Assembly: GCA_013141175.1 (NCBI GenBank)
Contig: JABFRN010000001.1
Span: forward strand, 62,001 to 126,000
DNA: 64,000 bases
Reading direction: 5' to 3'
Source: Lysobacter sp.
GTDB taxonomy: Bacteria > Pseudomonadota > Gammaproteobacteria > Xanthomonadales > Xanthomonadaceae
The notes beneath the pieces are model-generated. The model made no database searches and was not told the origin of the DNA. It saw nothing but the letters and a program-made list of their open reading frames with translations. Positions 5,029 through 62,186 of this stretch are shown here, one piece after another; the first letter of the stretch is position 1; each line of letters starts with the position of its first letter. Both the position numbers and the translations under genes were made by a program.

Positions 5029-7698
5029 GTGCACGACGCGCGCCCGGGCCCCGACTGCAGTTTTCCCGTGCCCGACCCCACTTCCATTCCCGCATCTCCG
5101 GTGCGCATCGCCAGCGACCAGCACACTCCGCTCATGCGCCAGTTCTTCGCCGCCAAGGCGGAGCATCCGGATGTGCTGCTGTTTTTCCGGATGGGCGATT
5201 TCTACGAAATGTTCTACGACGATGCGCGCAAGGCCGCGCGTCTGCTCGACATCACTTTGACGCAGCGCGGCAATTCTGCCGGTCAGCCCATTCCGATGGC
5301 CGGCGTGCCGGTGCATGCGTACGAAGGCTACCTCGCGCGTCTGGTCGCGCTGGGCGAGTCGGTCGCGATCTGCGAACAGATCGGCGACCCGGCGCTGGCG
5401 AAAGGTCTGGTCGAACGCAAGGTCGTGCGCATCGTCACGCCGGGCACGGTCACCGATGAAGCGCTGCTGCAGGATCGCCGCGATACGCTGCTGATGGCCG
5501 TATCGCGCGGAAAAAACGGCTACGGACTTGCATGGGCGGATCTTGCCGGTGGACGTTTCCTGGTCAATGAAGTGAACAGCGAGGACATGCTGGAAGCCGA
5601 ACTCGCGCGTCTCGATCCCGCCGAGCTGCTGATCCCCGATGAAGACGGCTGGCCGCTATCGCTGACCACCCGTCACGGCATCCGCCGCCGTGCGCCATGG
5701 CTGTTCGACACCGACAGCGGACGCCGGCAGTTGCTGAAATTTTTCAACCTGTTCGATCTCACCGGCTTCGGTATCGACAACAAACCGTTGGCCATCGCGG
5801 CAGCAGGCGCACTGCTCGGTTACGTCGAAGAAACCCAGAAGCAGCGGCTGCCGCATCTCACCGCGATCCGCCTCGAAACCAGCGACGGCGCGATCGCGAT
5901 GAATGCAGCGACGCGGCGCCATCTCGAACTCGACACCCGCGTCGATGGGGATACCCGGCACACCCTGCTCGGCGTGCTCGACAGCACCATCACCCCGATG
6001 GGCGGACGTCTGCTGCGGCGCTGGCTGCACCGCCCGCTGCGCGACCGCCGGATCGTGAGCGAACGCCATGACGCAGTGCAGCAGCTGTTTGCGCAGCGCG
6101 CGGACACCAGCGTGCGCGAGGCATTTCGCGGCCTGGGCGATATCGAACGCATTCTGTCCCGGGTGGCCCTTCGCAGCGCGCGCCCGCGCGACCTCTCCAC
6201 CCTGCGCGACGCCCTGCTGCTGATGCCCAAAGTGCGCGACGCGCTGTCGGGCATCGATTCGCCGCGACTGCAGGCGCTGTGCGCCGAACTGGGCGAACAC
6301 GACGCGCAGGCGGCGTGGATGGCCAGCGCGATCGTGCCGCAGCCGCCGGTGCTGGCCCGCGACGGCGGCGTGATCGCCGAAGGCTACGACGCCGAACTGG
6401 ACGAACTGCGCATGCTGAGCACGCATGCCGACCAGTTCCTGATCGATCTGGAAGCGCGCGAACGCGCGAGCAGCGGCATCGCCACGCTGAAGGTCGGCTA
6501 CAACCGCGTCCACGGCTACTTCATCGAGATCAGCAAAGGCCAGGCCGACAAGGCGCCTGTCCACTACACGCGCCGGCAGACGCTGACCGGCGCCGAGCGC
6601 TACATCACCGAAGAGCTGAAACAGTTCGAAGACAAGGTGCTGTCGGCGAAAGACCGCTCGCTCACGCGCGAAAAGCTGCTGTATGAAGGCATCCTCGACG
6701 AGCTGAATCGCGACCTCGAACCATTGAAGCGCGCAGCGGGTGCACTGAGCGAACTCGATGTGCTCGCCTGTTTCGCCGAGCGCGCGCGTGAACTCGACTG
6801 GTCGCAGCCGCAGTTGGTCGAAGACGCACGCCTGCACATCGAACGCGGCCGTCACCCGGTCGTCGAAGCGGTGCGCGACGAACCATTCGAACCGAACGAT
6901 CTGTCGCTCAACGGCGACGACGGCAGCGCGGCACGGCGCATGCTGGTGATCACCGGCCCGAACATGGGCGGCAAATCCACCTACATGCGCCAGAACGCGC
7001 TGATCGTGCTGCTCGCGCACATCGGCAGCTTCGTGCCCGCGTCGAAAGCGCAGATCGGCCCGATCGACCGCATCCTCACCCGCATCGGCGCGGGCGACGA
7101 TCTCGCGCGCGGGCAATCGACCTTCATGGTCGAGATGAGCGAAACCAGCTACATCCTGCATCACGCCACCGCGCAGTCGCTGGTGCTGATGGACGAAATC
7201 GGCCGCGGCACCTCGACCTACGACGGTCTCGCGCTGGCCGAAGCCTGCGCGAAGCATCTGGCCGCGACCAATCGCGCCTACACGCTGTTCGCCACGCATT
7301 ATTTCGAACTCACCGCCCTCGCCCAACCCGGCAGCGGTATCGCCAACGTGCATCTGGACGCGGTGGAGCACCACGACCAACACGGCGGCGACACCCTGGT
7401 GTTCATGCACGCGGTGAAAGACGGCCCCGCCGACCGCAGCTTCGGCCTGCAGGTCGCAGCGCTGGCCGGCCTGCCGAAGAGCGTCGTGCGCGAAGCGCGC
7501 GGGCGACTGGCGGAACTGGAACAGCGGCGCAGCGATCCCGCACCGGTGCTCACCCCGCAGGCATTGGATGCATCGCAGCAGATCGGTTTGTTCGCGTCGT
7601 CGTCCGCTGCGCTGGATGCGCTGGCGGCGATCGATCCCGACGAACTCACCCCGAAGCAGGCGCTGGAGGCGCTGTATCGGTTGAAGGCATTGGAGTGA
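5029..7698 (+). CDS. mutS: DNA mismatch repair protein MutS
   Basis: MutS recognises mismatches and small loops and recruits MutL through ATP-driven clamp formation. The mismatch-wedge motif F-Y-E is at residues 58-60 (RMGDFYEMF). The lever and clamp domains follow, and the C-terminal ATPase has the Walker [10 protein letters not shown] near residue 644, then [11 protein letters not shown], the Walker [17 protein letters not shown] and the FATHYFELT switch. The last part ends in the helical dimerisation region [17 protein letters not shown]. The start is uncertain: GTG codons at 5029, 5068 and 5101 are all in frame and none has a good ribosome site. The ATG at 5134 would cut the conserved HTPLMRQ segment and is unlikely. 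It is divergent from the receptor gene, with about 265 bases between them. Confidence 0.97.
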
Positions 7699-8048: not shown

Positions 8049-8188
8049 AGAACAGCGGCGGCATCGCGCAGGTTTGTTGTGCTGCGACGGGCCTTGGAGG
8101 TGCGGGCACGCACAGTACCGCTGCCCGATGCGTCTCAAGGCGCACCACTCCGCTCCATTACACTCTGCCGGCTGACAGGAGAGCATGC

Positions 8189-11100
8189 GTGACCATCGGA
8201 ATCTTCATCGCAGGATTGTTGTTCGGCGTCTTTTTGACGGTCTGGCTGCGGCGCACCCCGAGCGAGGCCGCAACACCGGACGCGACCGCAAACTCCACAA
8301 CGACCGAAGCCGCGCTGCCGGCGCCGGATGCCGCTGCGCCGGAAGAAACACCGCGCGATCGCCTGTACCGGCTGCGGGGCGAGATCGAGGCGGACGACGA
8401 GCGCGTCAAGCGGCCGGAGGATCTGCTGCAGTTGCCGCAGTTCCGCGAGGGCGTGGCGCTGTTGACGGGGAATGCCTTCGATGCGAAAGCGGTGCTGGAT
8501 CAGCTGGAAAGCGACAGCGGCGCGCTGGGTTGCATGATCTATGTGGCGCTGCGCGAACGCGCCGATATCGATGCCGCCGCTGCGCTGGCGGCCACGCCGC
8601 CGCCGGGCTGGTATCAACTGCGCTTCATGATCGATTACCTGCAGTCGCGTGAGGACGCCACCGCCCTGCCCGGGCTGCTGCGGCACCTGCGCCAATGGTG
8701 GTACGAGCAGCCGCCGCTGCGGCAGCGGCTGCGCGAGTATCTGCAGTGGGCGGGCGCGCATCCGCCGGGCAGCGTCGGGACGATGACCCTGGACACGCTG
8801 CAGGAATACGAGCTGGAGCAACTGGCCGAGGGCCTGAAGTCGTTCGCCGAACCGGTGCTGGCGCCGTATCTCGCGCAGGTGACGGACGAAGTGGCGCGGC
8901 GGCGCGAGCGGCGCACGCTGGGTGGCGTGGGCCGGCTGTGGACGCCGCCGCAAAACACGAGCGGCGGCATCGTCGATCACCCGGAACTCGATCGCCAGAT
9001 CGCGCAACTGTACGAATTGCTGCAGGCCACGCCGCCGGTGTCGGTGCTGATTTCCGGCGAACAGGGCGTTGGCAAATCGGTGCTGGTCGATCGTCTGTTC
9101 GCGCGCCTGCAGACTGAAGGCTGGCTGCTGTTCGAAGCCTCCGCCGCCGAAGTGCTGGCGGGACAGAAATACATCGGCGAACTGGAAGAGCGCGTGCGCG
9201 AGATGCTGACTGCGCTCGACCGTCCGCGTGCGCTGTGGCGGGTGCAGGATTTCTACGACCTGCTGCACAAGGGCGGGCACAGCCAGGACCCGCGCGGCAT
9301 TCTCGACATGCTGTTGCCGGCGCTGGAACGCGGCCAGGTGCGGATGATCGGCGAACTGTCGCCGGCGCAGCTCGCGCAGCTGCTGATCGCGCGTCCGACG
9401 CTGCGACATCTGGTGAAGACCGTGGCCCTGCTGTCGCCCGACACCGACGGCATGCGTACATTGCTGTCGCGCTGGAGTGCCACGCGCGAAGCGGAACTGG
9501 GCACGCCGGTGATCGATGCGCGTGCGCTGGACGAAGCGCAGCGCATGGCCGCGCAGTTCTTCCCCGAGCAGCGCGAACCTGGACGCACGCTGCGTCTGCT
9601 CGAAGAGAGCCTGCGCGTCGCGTGCAGCGCGGACGCGCGCGAGCTGCCGTTGACCACGGATGCGCTGCTGCGCGGCATCGCGCGGCGCAGCGGTCTGCCG
9701 CTGGATGTGATCGACGACAGCAAGAGTCTCGACCTCGATACGCTGCGCGCGTTCTTCCGCAAGCGCGTGATCGGTCAGGACGAAGCGGTGGAATGCCTGG
9801 TCGACCGCATCGCGATGCTCAAGGCCGGGCTGATCGACAGCAGTCGGCCGATCGGCGTGTTCCTGTTCGCCGGCCCCACCGGCACCGGCAAGACCGAACT
9901 GGCGAAGACGCTGGGCGAATTGCTGTTCGGCAGCAGCGAACGCCTGCTGCGTCTGGACATGAGCGAATTCCAGTCCGAAGACGCCGCGTGGCGGCTCACC
10001 GACGTATCGAACGACGGCAGCACGCGCTCGCTGGTCGCGCGCATCCGCGAGCAGCCGTTCTCGGTGGTGCTGCTGGACGAATTCGAAAAAGCGCACCCGC
10101 GCGTGTGGGACATGTTCCTGCAGGTGTTCGACGACGGCCGCCTGAGCGACCGCAACGGCAACGTCGCCGATTTCCGCCACAGCATCATCATCCTCACCAG
10201 CAACGCCGGCTCCACCTTGAGCCGCAGCGCCGGCCCGGGATTCACCTCGGCCGCCGGCGGTTATTCGCGCGGCGCGGTCGAGAAGGCACTGTTCGAAACC
10301 TTCCGTCGCGAGTTCCTCAACCGCCTCGATCGCATCGTGCTGTTCACGCCGCTGGACCGCGCGCTGATGCGCGACATCCTGCACAAGGAACTGCAGCGCG
10401 CGATGGGCCGTCGCGGGCTGCGGAATCGCGACTGGGCGGTGGAATGGGAACCGTCGGCGATCGAATTCCTGCTCGACCGCGGCTTCACCCCGGACCTCGG
10501 CGCACGTCCGCTGCGCCGCGCGATCGAACAGCATCTGCTCGCGCCGCTGGCGCGCAGCATCGTCGAGCACCGCACGCCGCAGGGCGACCAGTTCCTGTTC
10601 GTGCGCAGCGCGGGCGATCGTCTGGACGTGGAGTTCATCGACCCCGACCGCACGGCCATGGATGCCGCATCCGCGTCCTCCGGCACTACGGCCTTTGCGC
10701 GCGGGGATCTCGATGCGCAGGATCTGCGCGATCTGATCTACACGCCCGAAAGCTCGGCGGCCCATCTCATCGCGCTGCACGCGCATCTGCAGCGACGCGC
10801 CGAAGCGGTCGCCGCCGCTTCGTGGCAGCAGGCCCGCGATGCCGATTTCGCGGCGATGAACGATCGCGAGTTCTGGTCGCGCGCGGAGCGCTTCGACGTG
10901 CTGGACCGCATCGAACGCCGCGACCGCATCCAAAGCGCGCTCGAAACCGCGCAGCGGCTCGACGAACGCCTCGCCCGCGACGGCGCCAATTCCGTTGTCA
11001 TCGCACGGTATGCGCAGTTGCTCTGGCTGTTGGAGCACGCGATCACGGCGGTGGAAGATCGCGAGCCGCAGGATGCGGTCTGCGTCGTCGCCGCGAGCGC

Positions 11101-11545
11101 ATCCGATCTCAAACGCGATCCGGCGCAAACGCGACTGTGGTGGCAGCAGACGCTGGGCATGTACATGGCCTGGTCCGAACGCCGCAACATGCGCGTCGAA
11201 ACGCTCGAACAGGATGCGGAGCACGGACGCGCACGCTTCGCGGTCAGCGGCTTCGGCGCTTATCGACTGCTCGCCGCTGAACACGGGCTGCACGTGCTGG
11301 AACAGGAAGCGACCGATATCGATGGCGGCACGCGACGTTATTCGATCTCGGTACGCGTCGCGCAGGACCCTCCGGGCCGTACGCGGCCGACGCTGCAGGC
11401 GGCGGATGAAGAACCGCGCGTCTGTCGCCGCTATCGCGCAGCGCCTTCGCCGCTGGTGCGCGATGCCGTGCGCGGCTGGCGCAGCGGCCGGCTCGATCGC
11501 GTCCTCGCCGGTGAGTTCGATGTGATCCGCGTCGACAGCGATTGA
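8189..11545 (+). CDS. Membrane-anchored double AAA+ Clp-like ATPase fused to an RF2-like (PCRF) domain
   Basis: A 1118-residue protein. Residues 3-20 form one membrane segment, followed by a low-complexity linker and an unassigned region to about 260. The first AAA+ module has Walker A GEQGVGKS (290-297), but its Walker B aligns with RVQDF, so the usual Glu is missing. The second has Walker A GPTGTGKT (562-569), Walker B LLDEFEK (about 628) and the SNAG sensor. The Walker A spacing matches ClpA, without the ClpB middle domain. I see no IGL/IGF loop for ClpP docking. Residues about 885-1060 read like RF2: REFWSRAER, then MYMAWSERRNMRVETLE, then AYRLLAAEHGLHVLE. The last 40 residues match the end of RF2. 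The GGQ domain is absent, and the SPF stop-codon motif is replaced by ATD. GTG start with AGGAGA six bases upstream. Confidence 0.85.
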   Translation: MTIGIFIAGLLFGVFLTVWLRRTPSEAATPDATANSTTTEAALPAPDAAAPEETPRDRLYRLRGEIEADDERVKRPEDLLQLPQFREGVALLTGNAFDAKAVLDQLESDSGALGCMIYVALRERADIDAAAALAATPPPGWYQLRFMIDYLQSREDATALPGLLRHLRQWWYEQPPLRQRLREYLQWAGAHPPGSVGTMTLDTLQEYELEQLAEGLKSFAEPVLAPYLAQVTDEVARRRERRTLGGVGRLWTPPQNTSGGIVDHPELDRQIAQLYELLQATPPVSVLISGEQGVGKSVLVDRLFARLQTEGWLLFEASAAEVLAGQKYIGELEERVREMLTALDRPRALWRVQDFYDLLHKGGHSQDPRGILDMLLPALERGQVRMIGELSPAQLAQLLIARPTLRHLVKTVALLSPDTDGMRTLLSRWSATREAELGTPVIDARALDEAQRMAAQFFPEQREPGRTLRLLEESLRVACSADARELPLTTDALLRGIARRSGLPLDVIDDSKSLDLDTLRAFFRKRVIGQDEAVECLVDRIAMLKAGLIDSSRPIGVFLFAGPTGTGKTELAKTLGELLFGSSERLLRLDMSEFQSEDAAWRLTDVSNDGSTRSLVARIREQPFSVVLLDEFEKAHPRVWDMFLQVFDDGRLSDRNGNVADFRHSIIILTSNAGSTLSRSAGPGFTSAAGGYSRGAVEKALFETFRREFLNRLDRIVLFTPLDRALMRDILHKELQRAMGRRGLRNRDWAVEWEPSAIEFLLDRGFTPDLGARPLRRAIEQHLLAPLARSIVEHRTPQGDQFLFVRSAGDRLDVEFIDPDRTAMDAASASSGTTAFARGDLDAQDLRDLIYTPESSAAHLIALHAHLQRRAEAVAAASWQQARDADFAAMNDREFWSRAERFDVLDRIERRDRIQSALETAQRLDERLARDGANSVVIARYAQLLWLLEHAITAVEDREPQDAVCVVAASASDLKRDPAQTRLWWQQTLGMYMAWSERRNMRVETLEQDAEHGRARFAVSGFGAYRLLAAEHGLHVLEQEATDIDGGTRRYSISVRVAQDPPGRTRPTLQAADEEPRVCRRYRAAPSPLVRDAVRGWRSGRLDRVLAGEFDVIRVDSD

Positions 11546-11599: not shown

Positions 11600-11812
11600 T
11601 CACTCCGAACATGCGGCCACGCAGGCACGGTAGAGCACATTGCAGTGCCTGCTGTTCCACTGCGGATCGCCCACGACCTGCGCCCTGCAATCGTTCAATT
11701 GCTCCTGGCAACTGGCCAGGCAACTCGGGTCGTAGCCGTACGCGGACATCGATGCGCCAACCCCCAGGCCGAGCGCAAAGATCGACGTGAACACGAATCC
11801 ATAACGTTTCAT
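11600..11812 (-). CDS. Small cysteine-rich exported protein
   Basis: A 70-residue protein with a clear signal peptide (MKRYGFVF, then a hydrophobic core ending near SAYG). The mature part is about 45 residues with six cysteines in a Cys-x3-Cys-x6-Cys then Cys-x6-Cys-x3-Cys pattern, which would suit a small disulfide-bonded fold. I do not recognise the family. The ATG at 11810-11812 has AGGA nine bases upstream; longer frames add sequence without a signal. It is convergent with the Clp-RF2-like gene (54-base gap) and divergent from the DUF937 gene, with about 290 bases between. A second small exported protein at 45983-46249 is not obviously related. Confidence 0.65.
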   Translation of the reverse strand: MKRYGFVFTSIFALGLGVGASMSAYGYDPSCLASCQEQLNDCRAQVVGDPQWNSRHCNVLYRACVAACSE

Positions 11813-12105
11813 CTTGAATTCCTCCATGTGTGGATGAACGGACGCATCGGTCTGCGGACGGCCATGCGCGATCCGTGCCCGACGTCCACAGGCAGTATAG
11901 GGGCCTTGGGCTTGCATCCCGTACGCTCGAAAAAGCGATCGGGCGATTGATATTCCGTATCGTCCGCCCGGACGGGCGTGCGCATGGCGGTTCGACCATC
12001 GTCGACGGAAAAAAACACCTCCAGACCCCTATCGCTCCGCGCCATCACGGTAAAGTGAAGGCCCCGGCGCACACCGCCGATTCATCGCAATGAAGGACTT
12101 CCGCC

Positions 12106-12753
12106 ATGAGCAACCTGACCAACGATCTGCTCGCCCAACTCCAGGGCGCCCCGTTGCAGCAGATTTCCCGGCAACTCGGCATCGACCAGAATCAGGCGGC
12201 CGGCGCGGTCAGCGCGGCGCTGCCGCTGCTGATGGGCGCGTTGGGCAAGAACGCCAGCCAGCCGCAGGGCGCGGAGGCGCTGTTCGGCGCACTGCAGCGC
12301 GACCATACCGGTGGCGGCGGCATCGGCGATCTGCTCGGCATGGTGCTGGGCGGCGCGCAGAGCCGGCAGACCGACGGCGCTGGCATGCTCGGGCATATTC
12401 TCGGTGGCCAGCAGGGCCGCGCCGAACAGCATCTGGGCGAAGCGACCGGGCTGGGCGGCGATCGCGCCGGCATGCTGATGAAGATTCTCGCGCCGATCGT
12501 GATGGCGTATCTCGCCAAGCGCATGTTCGGCGGCAACGAAAGCGGCGGCGGTCAGGCGATGGGCCTGGGCGGCGGCAACCCGACGGCCGACATCCTGGGC
12601 GCCGTTCTCGGTCAGGAACAGCAACAAGTGCGCCAGCAGGGCGGCCTGGCAGGCGGCCTGCTCGGCGCGGTGCTCGACAAGGACGGCGACGGCGATGTCG
12701 ACCTGAGCGACATGCTGAAACTGGGCGGCGGTCTGCTCGGCGGCAATCGCTGA
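12106..12753 (+). CDS. DUF937 family protein
   Basis: A 215-residue DUF937 protein of unknown function. It shows the family pattern of an N-terminal helical part (LLAQLQGAPLQQISRQLG, then AAGAVSAALPLLMGAL), followed by glycine-rich segments LGMVLGG, MLGHILGG and DILGAVLG. A short hydrophobic helix (MLMKILAPIVMAYLAKRMFG, about 125-144) may touch the membrane. Near the end DKDGDGDVDLSDML looks like a calcium-binding EF-hand/dockerin loop, which is common in this family. No signal peptide is visible, so it is probably cytoplasmic. A hairpin at 12774-12795 follows the stop codon. Confidence 0.85.
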   Translation: MSNLTNDLLAQLQGAPLQQISRQLGIDQNQAAGAVSAALPLLMGALGKNASQPQGAEALFGALQRDHTGGGGIGDLLGMVLGGAQSRQTDGAGMLGHILGGQQGRAEQHLGEATGLGGDRAGMLMKILAPIVMAYLAKRMFGGNESGGGQAMGLGGGNPTADILGAVLGQEQQQVRQQGGLAGGLLGAVLDKDGDGDVDLSDMLKLGGGLLGGNR

Positions 12754-12914: not shown

Positions 12915-15332
12915 ATGGATTCTCCTGTCAGCACGAAACGCTTCCGCATCGCATTTTCCTTTGCTGGGGAAAAACGCGAATTCGTACAACAGGTTGCTGA
13001 CTTGCTTGCCGAGCGATTCGGGCAGGGAAAGATCCTCTACGACAAATATCACGAGGCGGAATTTGCGGTATTCGACCTCGGGATCAAGTTGCCCAAGCTA
13101 TACGGCGAGCAGTCCGACCTCATCGTTCCTGTCCTCTGTCCTGACTACGACGCGAAGCGGTGGACCGGATGGGAGTGGGTCCACATCTACGGCCTGCTCA
13201 CGAAAGCAGACGGTCATCGTGTAATGCCCAGTCGGTTCGAATATGCAAAAGCCGACGGCCTGAGTCCGGCTTCCGGCTTCATCGACCTCGACGACAAAAC
13301 CCCCGACGAATTCGTCACCCTCATCCTCGAACGCCTCGCGCTCAACGAAGGCCACCCGAAGGATTACTACACCAAACCCGCCGTCGTTGTTGCATCCGCG
13401 CCAAAAACGCTCATTCCCCACAACCTGCCCGCGCTGCAGCCGTTCTTCGGCCGCGAAGACGAGTTAAGAAAAATCGCCGACGCTCTCGACCCGGATTCAC
13501 GCACCTGGGGCGCATTGATCGATGGTCCGGGCGGGATGGGCAAGACTTCGCTCGCGGTCCGCGCCGCTTACGATGCCCCGCCGGAAATCTTCGACAAGAT
13601 CGTCTACATCTCGCTGAAGAGCCGCGAGCTGGACGACGACGGCCTGCGCGACCTCAGCGGCTTTCTGGTCAGCGGTCTGGTCGAGCTGTTCGGCGAACTC
13701 GCCCGCGAGCTGGGCCGCGACGATATCGTCAAGGTCGCGGAAGACCAGCGTCCGCGCCTGCTGCTGGACGCCCTGCGCGGCACGCAGACGCTGTTGGTCC
13801 TCGACAATCTGGAAAGCCTGCTCAAACCCGAGCGCGACATCCTCTTCACCTTCGTCAAGAAACTGCCCGCCGGCTGCAAGGCCATCCTCACCAGCCGTGG
13901 ACGCATCGGCTCCGGCGCAGAGGAGTTGATCCTCGAAAAACTCGGCCAACAAGCCGCGCTCGACACGCTGGCCGAACTCGCCACGCACAACCCGCACCTC
14001 GCCAGAACCAGCGAAGCCGAGCGCCTTGTGCTGTATCGAGAGACCGGCGGCAAGCCGCTGCTGCTGCGCTGGACCGCCGGACAGATCGGGCGCGGCCACT
14101 GCCTCACGTTCACCGATGCGCTCGATTTCCTGCGCTCCTGCCCGCCGGGCAACGACCCGCTGGAATTCATCTTCGGCGATCTGGTGGAGGACTTCAGCGA
14201 GGCCGAGACCCGGGCGCTCTGCGCGCTCACTTACTTCACTCTACCGGTCAAGTTGGAGAACGTCGCCGCCAACGCCGGGCTGCCGGAACCGGAGACCGAC
14301 CGCGCCCTGCGCAGCCTCGTCAATCGCTCTCTCGCCGTACCGACCGATGAGCTGACCGCTTTCACACTCGTGCCTATGGCTGCGGACTTCCTGCGCAAGA
14401 AAAAACCCGAGGTGGTGGCGGACGCCGGTGACCGGCTGGAACAGCGCGCCTACGCGCTGATCATCGAAAACGGCTACCGGAACCACGATCGCTTCCCCGC
14501 ACTAGAAGCCGCATGGCCCGGCATTGCCCCTGCACTGGCGCTGTTTCTCGCGGGCGACAACAAGCGCCTGCAAACGGTTTGCTTTGCTATTCAACAATTC
14601 CTGAATTTTCAGGGGCGCTGGGATGAATGGCTAGCCCTTAACGAGAAAGCCGAAACCAAAGCCGTAGCCGCTGCCGATCATGTCAACGCCGGCTGGCGCA
14701 CTTATCACGCCGGCTCAGTTCACGTTCTACGCAAGCAGCCCGATGCCGTGCTTGCCTGTGCCGACCGCACCGAAGCACACTCTATTGCGGCGAAGGCGGG
14801 CGCCCATATGCGGGCCACTGCCATTCTACTGCGTGGCACCGGCTATCAATTGAAAGGCGAATACCCCGCCGCCATCGCCGCCTATAAAGAGGCACTCTTA
14901 TTGTTCCGCAACCTCGCCGCCGAGAGCGAGGAAGTGGCAGCAACCCTGAATGATCTCGCATCGGCCGAAGGAATGTCTGGCAATTACGGCACTGCCGAGA
15001 AGCATTGCCGCGAGGCGCTCCGCATGGCCCGAGCCATCGGTGACGCCGAAGGCGTGGCCGTCTTCACCGGCAATCTGGCTGATCTGGCCATCGACCGCCA
15101 GGACTGGCCAGCCGCCGAAATCCTCGCGCGCGAAGCCCTGCCCTTGTCCGAAGCCGTCCACCGCCAAGAATTGATCGCGGAAGACAACCGCCGCCTCGCC
15201 AAAGCCCTCTTAAGCCAAGGAAAAGCCGCCGAGGCCCTGCCCCATGCCCAGCGGGCAGTGGAGATCTACACCCGACTCGGCTCCCCCGACCTAGCCGAGG
15301 CCAAAGCCACTCTCGCCGAGTGCGGTGGCTGA
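12915..15332 (+). CDS. TIR-STAND (NB-ARC-like) NTPase with TPR repeats, putative defence receptor
   Basis: An 805-residue protein in three parts. Residues about 9-140 are a bacterial TIR domain: FRIAFSFAGEKREFV, LYDKYHEAEF, SDLIVPVLC, and a W-x2-W-E-W segment in the place of the NAD-cleaving Glu. Residues about 175-500 are a STAND/NB-ARC ATPase: FFGREDEL, Walker A GPGGMGKT (204-211), Walker B LLVLDN (293-298), LTSRGR sensor, then a winged-helix part. Residues about 520-800 are TPR-type helical repeats, the usual sensing arm. Such proteins resemble plant and animal immune receptors, and several bacterial relatives act against phage by depleting NAD; the function here is inferred. The gene stands alone between DUF937 and katG, and the 5' part and downstream gap look less GC-rich than the surroundings, which hints at transfer. 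Confidence 0.85.
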   Translation: MDSPVSTKRFRIAFSFAGEKREFVQQVADLLAERFGQGKILYDKYHEAEFAVFDLGIKLPKLYGEQSDLIVPVLCPDYDAKRWTGWEWVHIYGLLTKADGHRVMPSRFEYAKADGLSPASGFIDLDDKTPDEFVTLILERLALNEGHPKDYYTKPAVVVASAPKTLIPHNLPALQPFFGREDELRKIADALDPDSRTWGALIDGPGGMGKTSLAVRAAYDAPPEIFDKIVYISLKSRELDDDGLRDLSGFLVSGLVELFGELARELGRDDIVKVAEDQRPRLLLDALRGTQTLLVLDNLESLLKPERDILFTFVKKLPAGCKAILTSRGRIGSGAEELILEKLGQQAALDTLAELATHNPHLARTSEAERLVLYRETGGKPLLLRWTAGQIGRGHCLTFTDALDFLRSCPPGNDPLEFIFGDLVEDFSEAETRALCALTYFTLPVKLENVAANAGLPEPETDRALRSLVNRSLAVPTDELTAFTLVPMAADFLRKKKPEVVADAGDRLEQRAYALIIENGYRNHDRFPALEAAWPGIAPALALFLAGDNKRLQTVCFAIQQFLNFQGRWDEWLALNEKAETKAVAAADHVNAGWRTYHAGSVHVLRKQPDAVLACADRTEAHSIAAKAGAHMRATAILLRGTGYQLKGEYPAAIAAYKEALLLFRNLAAESEEVAATLNDLASAEGMSGNYGTAEKHCREALRMARAIGDAEGVAVFTGNLADLAIDRQDWPAAEILAREALPLSEAVHRQELIAEDNRRLAKALLSQGKAAEALPHAQRAVEIYTRLGSPDLAEAKATLAECGG

Positions 15333-61787: not shown

Positions 61788-62186
61788 TCAGGCCAGAAGG
61801 GCGATACGGCCGATCGCGTAGAGAGAAGCGAGCGCGCCCAGCGCGCAGGCGAACGTGATCAGCAACTGCAGGAAGATCTCGGTCGGACGATGGTGGAAAT
61901 AATCCTCGATCACCACCTGCAGCCCGAGCCGCGCGTGCCAGAACAGGCTGATCGCGAACAGCGCCAGGGCGATGGCGTTCATCGGCTTCGCCAGCGCGGC
62001 CTGCACCTGGGTGTGGTCGGCGCCGACCAGCGCGACGATCATGCCGAGGATCCACGGCGCGAGCAGCGCCAGAAACACGGCGGTGACGCGCTGCCACCAG
62101 AAATGAGCGGTGCCGGACTTCGCCGAACCCAGGCCATGGGCACGGCCGACCGGCGTACGGAAATCGGGTGAAGGGGACTTGCTCAT
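61788..62186 (-). CDS. sdhD: Succinate dehydrogenase membrane anchor SdhD
   Basis: A 132-residue anchor with three membrane helices. [20 protein letters not shown] covers the first, the conserved [16 protein letters not shown] carries the haem b His and the Asp-Tyr pair near the quinone site, and the last helix is [19 protein letters not shown]. It overlaps sdhC by ATGA. Confidence 0.93.

Follow-up and report, generated by a model that had tools for sequence, protein, structure and literature searches.

Architecture of the fusion gene

The window, the whole 64,000-nucleotide (nt) stretch of Lysobacter DNA analysed here, corresponds to positions 62001–126000 of a single-contig 4.16-Mb genome. 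On its forward strand, at 8189–11545, it carries a gene in which a Clp-type motor with two AAA+ ATPase modules (D1 and D2) is joined in one frame to a C-terminal domain homologous to release factor 2 (RF2, encoded by prfB). The RF2-derived domain lacks the GGQ catalytic domain and the SPF anticodon motif. The fusion gene is composed as follows, with transmembrane abbreviated TM, lengths in amino acids (aa) and 'own' denoting proteins encoded elsewhere in the same genome.

8189–11545, forward strand: whole gene, GTG start, 1118 aa, comprising TM anchor, HEAT-like domain, D1, D2, linker and RF2-derived domain
8177–8181, forward strand: AGGAG, likely ribosome-binding site, 7 nt before the GTG of the fusion gene
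8189–8245, forward strand: N-terminal transmembrane segment, residues 1–19, followed by RR; Kyte–Doolittle hydropathy 2.33
8327–8980, forward strand: all-helical N-domain, residues 47–264, HEAT/alphaRep-like and not Clp_N; AlphaFold2 predicted local distance difference test (pLDDT) 94.1
9056–9079, forward strand: D1 Walker A, GEQGVGKS, residues 290–297
9161–9178, forward strand: D1 pore loop, GQKYIG, with Tyr328
9230–9253, forward strand: D1 Walker B position, degenerate ALWRVQDF; own ClpA has AVLFIDEI
9872–9895, forward strand: D2 Walker A, GPTGTGKT, residues 562–569
9992–10042, forward strand: D2 pore-loop-1 stretch, residues 602–618, without the GYVG of ClpA/ClpB and with no aromatic residue
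10070–10090, forward strand: D2 Walker B, LLDEFEK, residues 628–634
10235–10243, forward strand: PGF, residues 683–685, at the position of the ClpP-docking tripeptide; own ClpA has IGF, own ClpB has none
10352–10591, forward strand: D2 small domain (ClpB_D2-small)
10610–10744, forward strand: variable linker joining D2 to the RF2-derived domain, approximately residues 808–852, as judged from alignments
10751–11527, forward strand: RF2-derived domain, about residues 855–1113, with domains 1, 2 and 4 and without domain 3
11132–11299, forward strand: Pfam match to PCRF, residues 982–1037
11423–11527, forward strand: tail CRRYRAAPSPLVRDAVRGWRSGRLDRVLAGEFDVI, residues 1079–1113, aligned to the RF2 C-terminal tail

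Homology of the C-terminal domain to RF2

The last ~260 residues of the window protein are homologous to RF2. On the window protein alone, the Pfam family PCRF (PF03462) was matched at E=1.3e-5, with 25.6 bits against a cut-off of 24. A family alignment (A3) was built from the window protein and 45 of the 57 loci described below; PCRF was the sole Pfam family matched at E≤0.01, by 45 of these 46 members. When the 46-member family profile was searched against PDB sequences, RF2 was found at E=5.8e-18 and RF1 at E=2.6e-12; 39 of the 41 rows returned were release factors, the remaining two having E-values of 0.77 and 0.91.

Profile–profile comparison by hhalign was made against 21 RF2 sequences, 20 from genomes carrying the fusion and one from the genome of the window. 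This gave a single alignment (E=2.6e-17) covering RF2 columns 58–386 of 405. It begins within domain 1, passes over 85 template columns, most of them in domain 3, and extends to the C-terminal tail. Against 14 RF1 sequences the best stretch scored E=6.9e-9 and the tail was a separate weak alignment (0.06). The AlphaFold2 model of the RF2-derived domain had a pLDDT of 95.2. A Foldseek search with this model returned 51 PDB matches at E≤1e-3, and the 50 listed were chains of class-I release factors, with modest TM-scores of 0.29–0.52 by query length. The RF2-derived domain retains the RF2 order of domain 1, domain 2 and tail.

The first-pass annotation had noticed by eye a resemblance to RF2 in the last 230 residues, and profile, hhalign and structure searches all match release factors there; the profile and AlphaFold comparisons with RF2 and PCRF that it proposed for the C-terminal part were significant. 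Its further claim, of likeness to the RF2 C-terminus itself, is supported by the single profile–profile alignment, which reaches that tail, together with the order of secondary-structure elements in the model. Tested by itself with HMMER, the short tail gave no significant match whichever way the comparison was run. A tree left an origin from RF2 rather than RF1 undecided, with the family forming its own long branch beside both crowns (support 86, stem 1.45).

Loss and retention of release-factor residues

To determine which release-factor residues have been kept, the 76 columns that are at least 95% invariant in the 21 RF2 sequences were scored across the fusion family. The same residue was present in at least 80% of the family in 13 columns and the RF2 residue fell below 80% in six; another 30 had a different majority residue and 27 lay in gaps. 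The retained residues, in the numbering of the genome's own prfB product, were W46, A127, M150, A187, L191, E194, G196, H198, V221, R323, Y325, D334 and G350, that is, the W of domain 1, the M of MY, the later A-L-E-G-H and, in the tail, R-Y, D and G.

Alignments of the window type agree with the first-pass annotation that the GGQ domain (domain 3) and the SPF motif are lost, and add the GG motif, which sits at the tip of the first domain-2 helix, to what is absent. The switch region next to the GGQ domain was lost along with it. On sequence grounds, no release activity on ribosomes would be predicted. The GG, anticodon and GGQ motifs are marked as functionally important in release factors in a figure legend of PMC1586002. 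The family tail, P-PLVRD-RGWR-GRLDRVL-GDFD, holds many of the domain's invariant residues across phyla and differs from RF2 at the invariant W257, R258, G260 and R261 (A3 numbering). This near-invariant, family-specific tail would be the best candidate for a contact site.

Whether prfB always accompanies the fusion had been raised as a check. A separate, intact prfB with SPF and GGQ was found in the genome of the window, and prfB scored above its curated cut-off in 20 of the 20 fusion genomes tested. Because a free full RF2 is present in all 20, the fusion domain is not a replacement for termination. An in-frame stop interrupted the prfB match in four genomes, as one TGA in each of G227, G234 and G236 and one TAG in G228. 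The classical prfB +1 frameshift would fit the TGA cases and not the TAG case. Proteins of ArfB size that match the catalytic region of prfB (frames of 145–205 aa) were found in at least 14 of the 20 fusion genomes, and rescue-type factors therefore seem to coexist with the fusion.

Distribution of the fusion

All 11 genomes of the genus, the window's own and ten others, carried the fusion, in frames of 1140–1709 aa. Genome tallies may be low, since in each genome only a restricted number of candidates from a first look (6–30) was scored. At E≤1e-25 a match was found in 22 of 198 genomes of the taxonomic family, and at E≤1e-15 a phylum sample of 398 genomes gave 19 matches, three of fusion length (own included) and 16 of RF2 size (344–536 aa). 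In the phylum of L083, a locus titled Krumholzibacteriota, matches were found in 10 of 80 genomes.

A scan of GTDB species genomes yielded 57 loci, 56 of them with a frame holding the RF2-derived domain; the other, L097, was a 43-residue match with no frame. These loci were distributed across Lysobacter, Luteimonas, Xanthomonas, Pseudoxanthomonas, Tahibacter and Rudaea, and across metagenome-assembled genomes titled, as deposited, Planctomycetota, Krumholzibacteria, Calditrichia, Kapaibacterium, Acidobacteria, Rokuibacteriota, Deltaproteobacteria and Kiloniellales. The flanks of L076 and L082, and those of L080 and L086, are about 88% alike or more, so that each pair is closely related however its members are titled. 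In 55 of the 56 loci the motor and the domain share a frame, with the motor first, the exception (L065) being a domain-only frame at a contig edge. Loci with frames of 1050 aa or less (L065, L069, L076 and L077) and L097 were excluded, as was L084 from the full-length counts. At L084 (5487–8861) the N-terminal half is out of frame before D2, likely through a frameshift that is either real or an assembly error.

Two long frames were rejected as fusions: that of 948 aa in G055 encodes an ordinary RF1 whose frame stays open further upstream, and L148, of 860 aa, encodes an ordinary RF2. Among viral contigs, 27 pattern matches (one pattern only) included no relative, and no match was found in plasmids. 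A mobile element was rejected as an identity on the basis of these viral and plasmid searches.

Motor, ClpP loop, membrane anchor and N-domain

Motor motifs were counted by alignment in 51 loci and the window (n=52), with the genome's own ClpA (TIGR02639) and own ClpB, both above their TIGR cut-offs, as control genes. D1 has its Walker A motif and an aromatic residue in the pore loop in nearly all members (Y in 41, F in 9, H in 1 and M in 1). The acidic pair of the D1 Walker B motif is gone, being replaced by RVQD, YVPD and similar stretches; LWRVQDF in the window, where own ClpA has the intact motif, accords with the degenerate first Walker B described at first pass, and the motif is degenerate in the Planctomycetota sisters described below as well. 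In D2 the Walker B DE is present in all 52. The GYVG of D2 is missing, and any aromatic residue occurs in the pore-loop-1 stretch in only three of the 52. The best NCBIfam score for the motor was to TIGR03346, at 281.9 bits far below its cut-off of 1232.1, and the place of a coiled-coil M-domain between D1 and D2 was a gap in the alignment with own ClpB.

The ClpP-docking tripeptide has the signature LIV-G-FL. The form [LIV]GF, aligned with the IGF of own ClpA, was present in 21 of the 21 members outside Lysobacterales and in 14 of the 14 Planctomycetota sisters. Among the 31 Lysobacterales members, including the window, the position reads PGF in 28, AGF in one, PAF in one and MGF in one, and none has [LIV]GF. 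The loop reported missing at first pass is present, with its tripeptide drifted to PGF in the window against IGF in own ClpA. The three singletons (L064, PAF; L066, MGF; L079, AGF) represent further drift within Lysobacterales. IGF loops bind pockets of ClpP, as described in PMC7112952. Own ClpB has no such tripeptide, and one ClpP match was found in the genome of the window. As judged from these motifs, the family looks built to work with ClpP.

A membrane helix with Kyte–Doolittle hydropathy of at least 1.6 was found in 45 of the 52 members, a count made on stop-to-stop frames, in which some scored residues may lie outside the translated part; the anchor first noticed in the window thus recurs through most of the family. 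The N-domain is helical and HEAT-like, based on its profile, the AlphaFold2 model and the HEAT_2 matches of the sisters. Its profile matched the alphaRep structure 3ltm in the PDB (1.6e-8). Foldseek gave weak matches, none at E≤1e-3, and Clp_N was not among the Pfam matches of 42 family N-domains at E≤0.1.

Planctomycetota sisters and history of the fusion

The phylum of L075, a locus titled Planctomycetota, was sampled with 294 genomes, of which 34 gave a match at E≤1e-15. By score and frame length these comprised 14 of the window type, of which only L149 was read besides L075, 14 of a second type and six of RF2 itself. The second, sister type (L134–L147) has the same kind of motor, with two AAA+ modules, and an RF2 part, in frames of 961–1393 aa. 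Pfam placed HEAT_2 before the motor in four of the eight sisters scanned and PCRF in all eight. No N-terminal membrane helix like that of the window was evident in the sisters; their hydropathy reaches 1.64 in L137 and 1.57 in L147, both inside the HEAT region.

A continuous RF2-profile match runs across domain 3 in seven of the 14 sisters (E 3.6e-18 to 5.6e-36). No GGQ tripeptide was found in the RF2 part of the 14, L147 being cut before the site. The surrounding stretch is altered, with GGR near the place in L146 and FGQ nearby in L136, so that the 13 readable sisters have a degenerate domain 3 without GGQ. In alignment with RF2, SPF and the GG motif were missing from the readable sisters too.

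Two trees were built, one of D2 and one of the RF part without L147, and in both the window type is nested within a grade of sisters. Supports for D2 and the RF part respectively were 75 and 69 for the window type and 58 and 76 for window type and sisters together. Nesting in both trees is as expected from one fusion followed by loss of domain 3, and domain 3 probably decayed after the fusion. The simplest history suggested by the sequences would be that one full release factor was fused to a Clp motor, that catalysis and decoding were lost and that domain 3 was later deleted, the deletion in this history falling in the branch that bears the membrane helix.

Comparison with known systems

The closest comparison for the motor is ClpA, with which the fusion shares two AAA+ modules with Walker A, the D1 pore-loop tyrosine, the D2 Walker A and B motifs and, by alignment with own ClpA, the NR-D and GAR regions, the position of the ClpP tripeptide and the lack of an M-domain. 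Unlike ClpA, the fusion adds a membrane helix and the RF2-derived C-terminal domain, has a HEAT-like domain instead of Clp_N, and shows a dead D1 Walker B, no D2 GYVG and, in the window, PGF as its tripeptide. ClpB/Hsp104 shares with the motor the top-ranking TIGR03346, yet at a score far below cut-off, and differs in its coiled-coil M-domain; own ClpB, in addition, has no ClpP tripeptide. FtsH and other membrane-anchored AAA+ proteases likewise place an N-terminal membrane anchor before an AAA+ unfoldase. The fusion, unlike these, has no protease domain in the chain and has a Clp-type two-ring motor.

Domains 1 and 2 and the C-terminal tail are homologous to those of RF2 (prfB) by profile and predicted fold. 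In contrast to RF2, the fusion has no domain 3 with GGQ and no SPF or GG motif, is joined to a motor and does not replace prfB. PrfH, ArfB and other non-standard bacterial release factors belong to the same release-factor superfamily, as presented in PMC6514570 and PMC1586002; these retain GGQ but have lost either domain 1 or the decoding region, whereas the fusion loses GGQ and keeps domain 1. The section of PMC6514570 on bacterial release factors covers RF1, RF2, ArfB and PrfH, and the words Clp and PCRF do not occur in the main text of this survey of release-factor evolution. The first-pass annotation knew of no described system of this form, and our searches of the open literature likewise found no published description of the fusion, although articles behind subscriptions may have escaped them. 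Both halves belong to known kinds, and what appears to be new is their combination, in which an unfoldase has a dead release factor as a permanent component.

Proposed function

The best explanation of these observations as a whole, and one we consider reasonably probable, is a Clp-family unfoldase of ClpP-feeding ancestry in which a dead RF2 has been kept as a docking module. Such a Clp/Hsp100-type unfoldase would be tethered to the membrane through a single N-terminal helix and would carry a helical, HEAT-like domain at its front. The first ATPase ring probably grips the substrate and no longer hydrolyses ATP, and the second ring would do the work, D2 powering the remodelling. The ancestral form probably fed ClpP in the way that ClpA does, because the second ring of the wider family has the ClpP-docking loop, and ClpP may serve as the downstream peptidase at least outside Lysobacterales. 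In the RF2 part, the catalytic GGQ and stop-codon reading would have been lost first, at the stage represented by the Planctomycetota sisters, and the whole GGQ domain afterwards. The dead release factor would then be retained for docking or recognition, bringing the unfoldase to a specific partner or substrate, with the ribosomal stalk or ribosome, or a protein without a link to translation, as candidates.

Several results weigh against this explanation. Absence of the D2 GYVG loop makes threading power uncertain, and the tripeptides of the clade to which the window belongs suggest that ClpP docking there may have become weaker or disappeared. No clear membrane helix (hydropathy below 1.4) was found in six of the 52 members, five of them labelled Krumholzibacteria or Krumholzibacteriota, and one more member was borderline at 1.51. 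The tree supports are modest (58–76). Nor was any neighbouring gene shared by the whole family: a Pfam search of 20 flanking proteins from 17 loci found unlike families in 15 and none in five.

For the RF2-derived domain, reuse of the release-factor fold for binding is no less good a fit than ribosome targeting. In the form of an adaptor without a link to the ribosome, which would recognize a membrane or cytosolic client through the tail as its binding site, such reuse has not quite an even chance of being correct. It is favoured by the loss of the ribosome-facing motifs and by the tail, with its many invariant residues across phyla and its departure from RF2 at W, R, G and R. The patchy spread (22/198, 3/398 and 10/80 genomes) would also suit an accessory, client-specific factor. 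Against it, the gene neighbourhood offers no family-wide client candidate, and conservation over such distant groups would be unusual for one narrow client.

Ribosome-directed quality control, which we regard as rather unlikely, would have the RF2 part dock on the ribosome (at the stalk base via domain 1, at the factor site or in an empty A site) while the membrane-anchored unfoldase, with or without ClpP, extracts or degrades nascent or bound proteins at stalled or terminating ribosomes. Domain 1 is retained, and in RF2 this domain faces the L11/L7-L12 stalk base, a subject on which a reviewer passage of PMC1586002 touches; the RF2 domain order is kept, the family is nearer RF2 than RF1 in both the PDB and hhalign comparisons, and a free full RF2 is present in every fusion genome tested. 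However, the loss of the GG motif, SPF region and GGQ, in the window type and readable sisters alike, weakens the prediction of A-site binding in the manner of RF2, and the kept residues look like a fold core. The ArfB-sized proteins in at least 14 of 20 genomes, moreover, give no sign of the fusion filling a rescue gap. The fullest version of this idea, a membrane-tethered ClpP-type protease whose dead release factor finds stalled, terminating or translocon-bound ribosomes and which extracts or degrades their contents there, is in our judgement doubtful.

The domain could also regulate the motor itself, through oligomerization or as a ring cap or ClpP-side lid, with the whole acting as a ClpP-independent remodelling chaperone at least in Lysobacterales; this we consider improbable. 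It would agree with the position of the domain after D2-small, the face that in ClpA meets ClpP, and with the absence of [LIV]GF from all 31 members of the window's clade, but a ClpP-independent machine would have no need of the [LIV]GF kept elsewhere (21/21 and 14/14), and a variable linker separates the domain from the ring. Chance resemblance, or two genes wrongly joined in assembly, might be read into the weak single-protein PCRF match (25.6 bits) and the non-significant tail, but is ruled out by profile E-values to 1e-18, by the listed structure matches, all 50 of which are to release factors, and by long fusion frames in 11/11 genomes of the genus and domain and motor in one frame in 55/56 loci.

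Release factors are among the most conserved proteins of translation. Here, throughout a widespread family, one of them has lost both of its functions and become joined to an unfoldase, and intermediate forms survive in Planctomycetota, which makes this a rarely seen instance of the conversion of a translation factor to something else. If the protein were a ribosome-seeking ClpP-type protease as set out above, it would represent a proteolytic branch of ribosome quality control with a built-in release-factor decoy, evolved by stepwise decay of RF2 after fusion. Were the domain still to find ribosomes, Clp proteolysis would be tied directly to translation at the membrane; were it not, a release-factor fold would have been reused as an adaptor. 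Either way, the partner could be sought with one domain of about 260 residues.

Gene neighbourhood

No neighbour common to the whole family was found in a comparison of open reading frames (ORFs) among the 56 loci, with results listed for 32. Among the 24 loci examined outside Lysobacterales, shared neighbours were few and occurred in pairs or trios. The most tempting was an Atg22-like transporter of the major facilitator superfamily, downstream of the fusion at L070 (10245–11555) and L072 (8922–10247), with 59% identity. A nitroreductase-like gene was common to L082, L088 and L093 (49–71%), L077 and L090 shared neighbour proteins of about 1000 aa (60–69%), that of L090 having no NCBIfam name, and L086 and L087 shared one weak neighbour. 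Identity as a defence system was rejected, since the PADLOC matches to DolB (8.2e-29), PDC-M37B and weaker entries all fell on the AAA+ part.

In the window, the fusion gene lies between mutS upstream (5029–7698) and a DUF937 gene downstream (12106–12753). A 105-aa ORF with a signal-like stretch and several cysteines is convergent with the fusion gene (11600–11917, reverse strand). Further downstream, at 12915–15332 on the forward strand, is an 805-aa NLR-like protein with TIR_2, a STAND/NB-ARC-like NTPase and TPR, which may be a defence gene.

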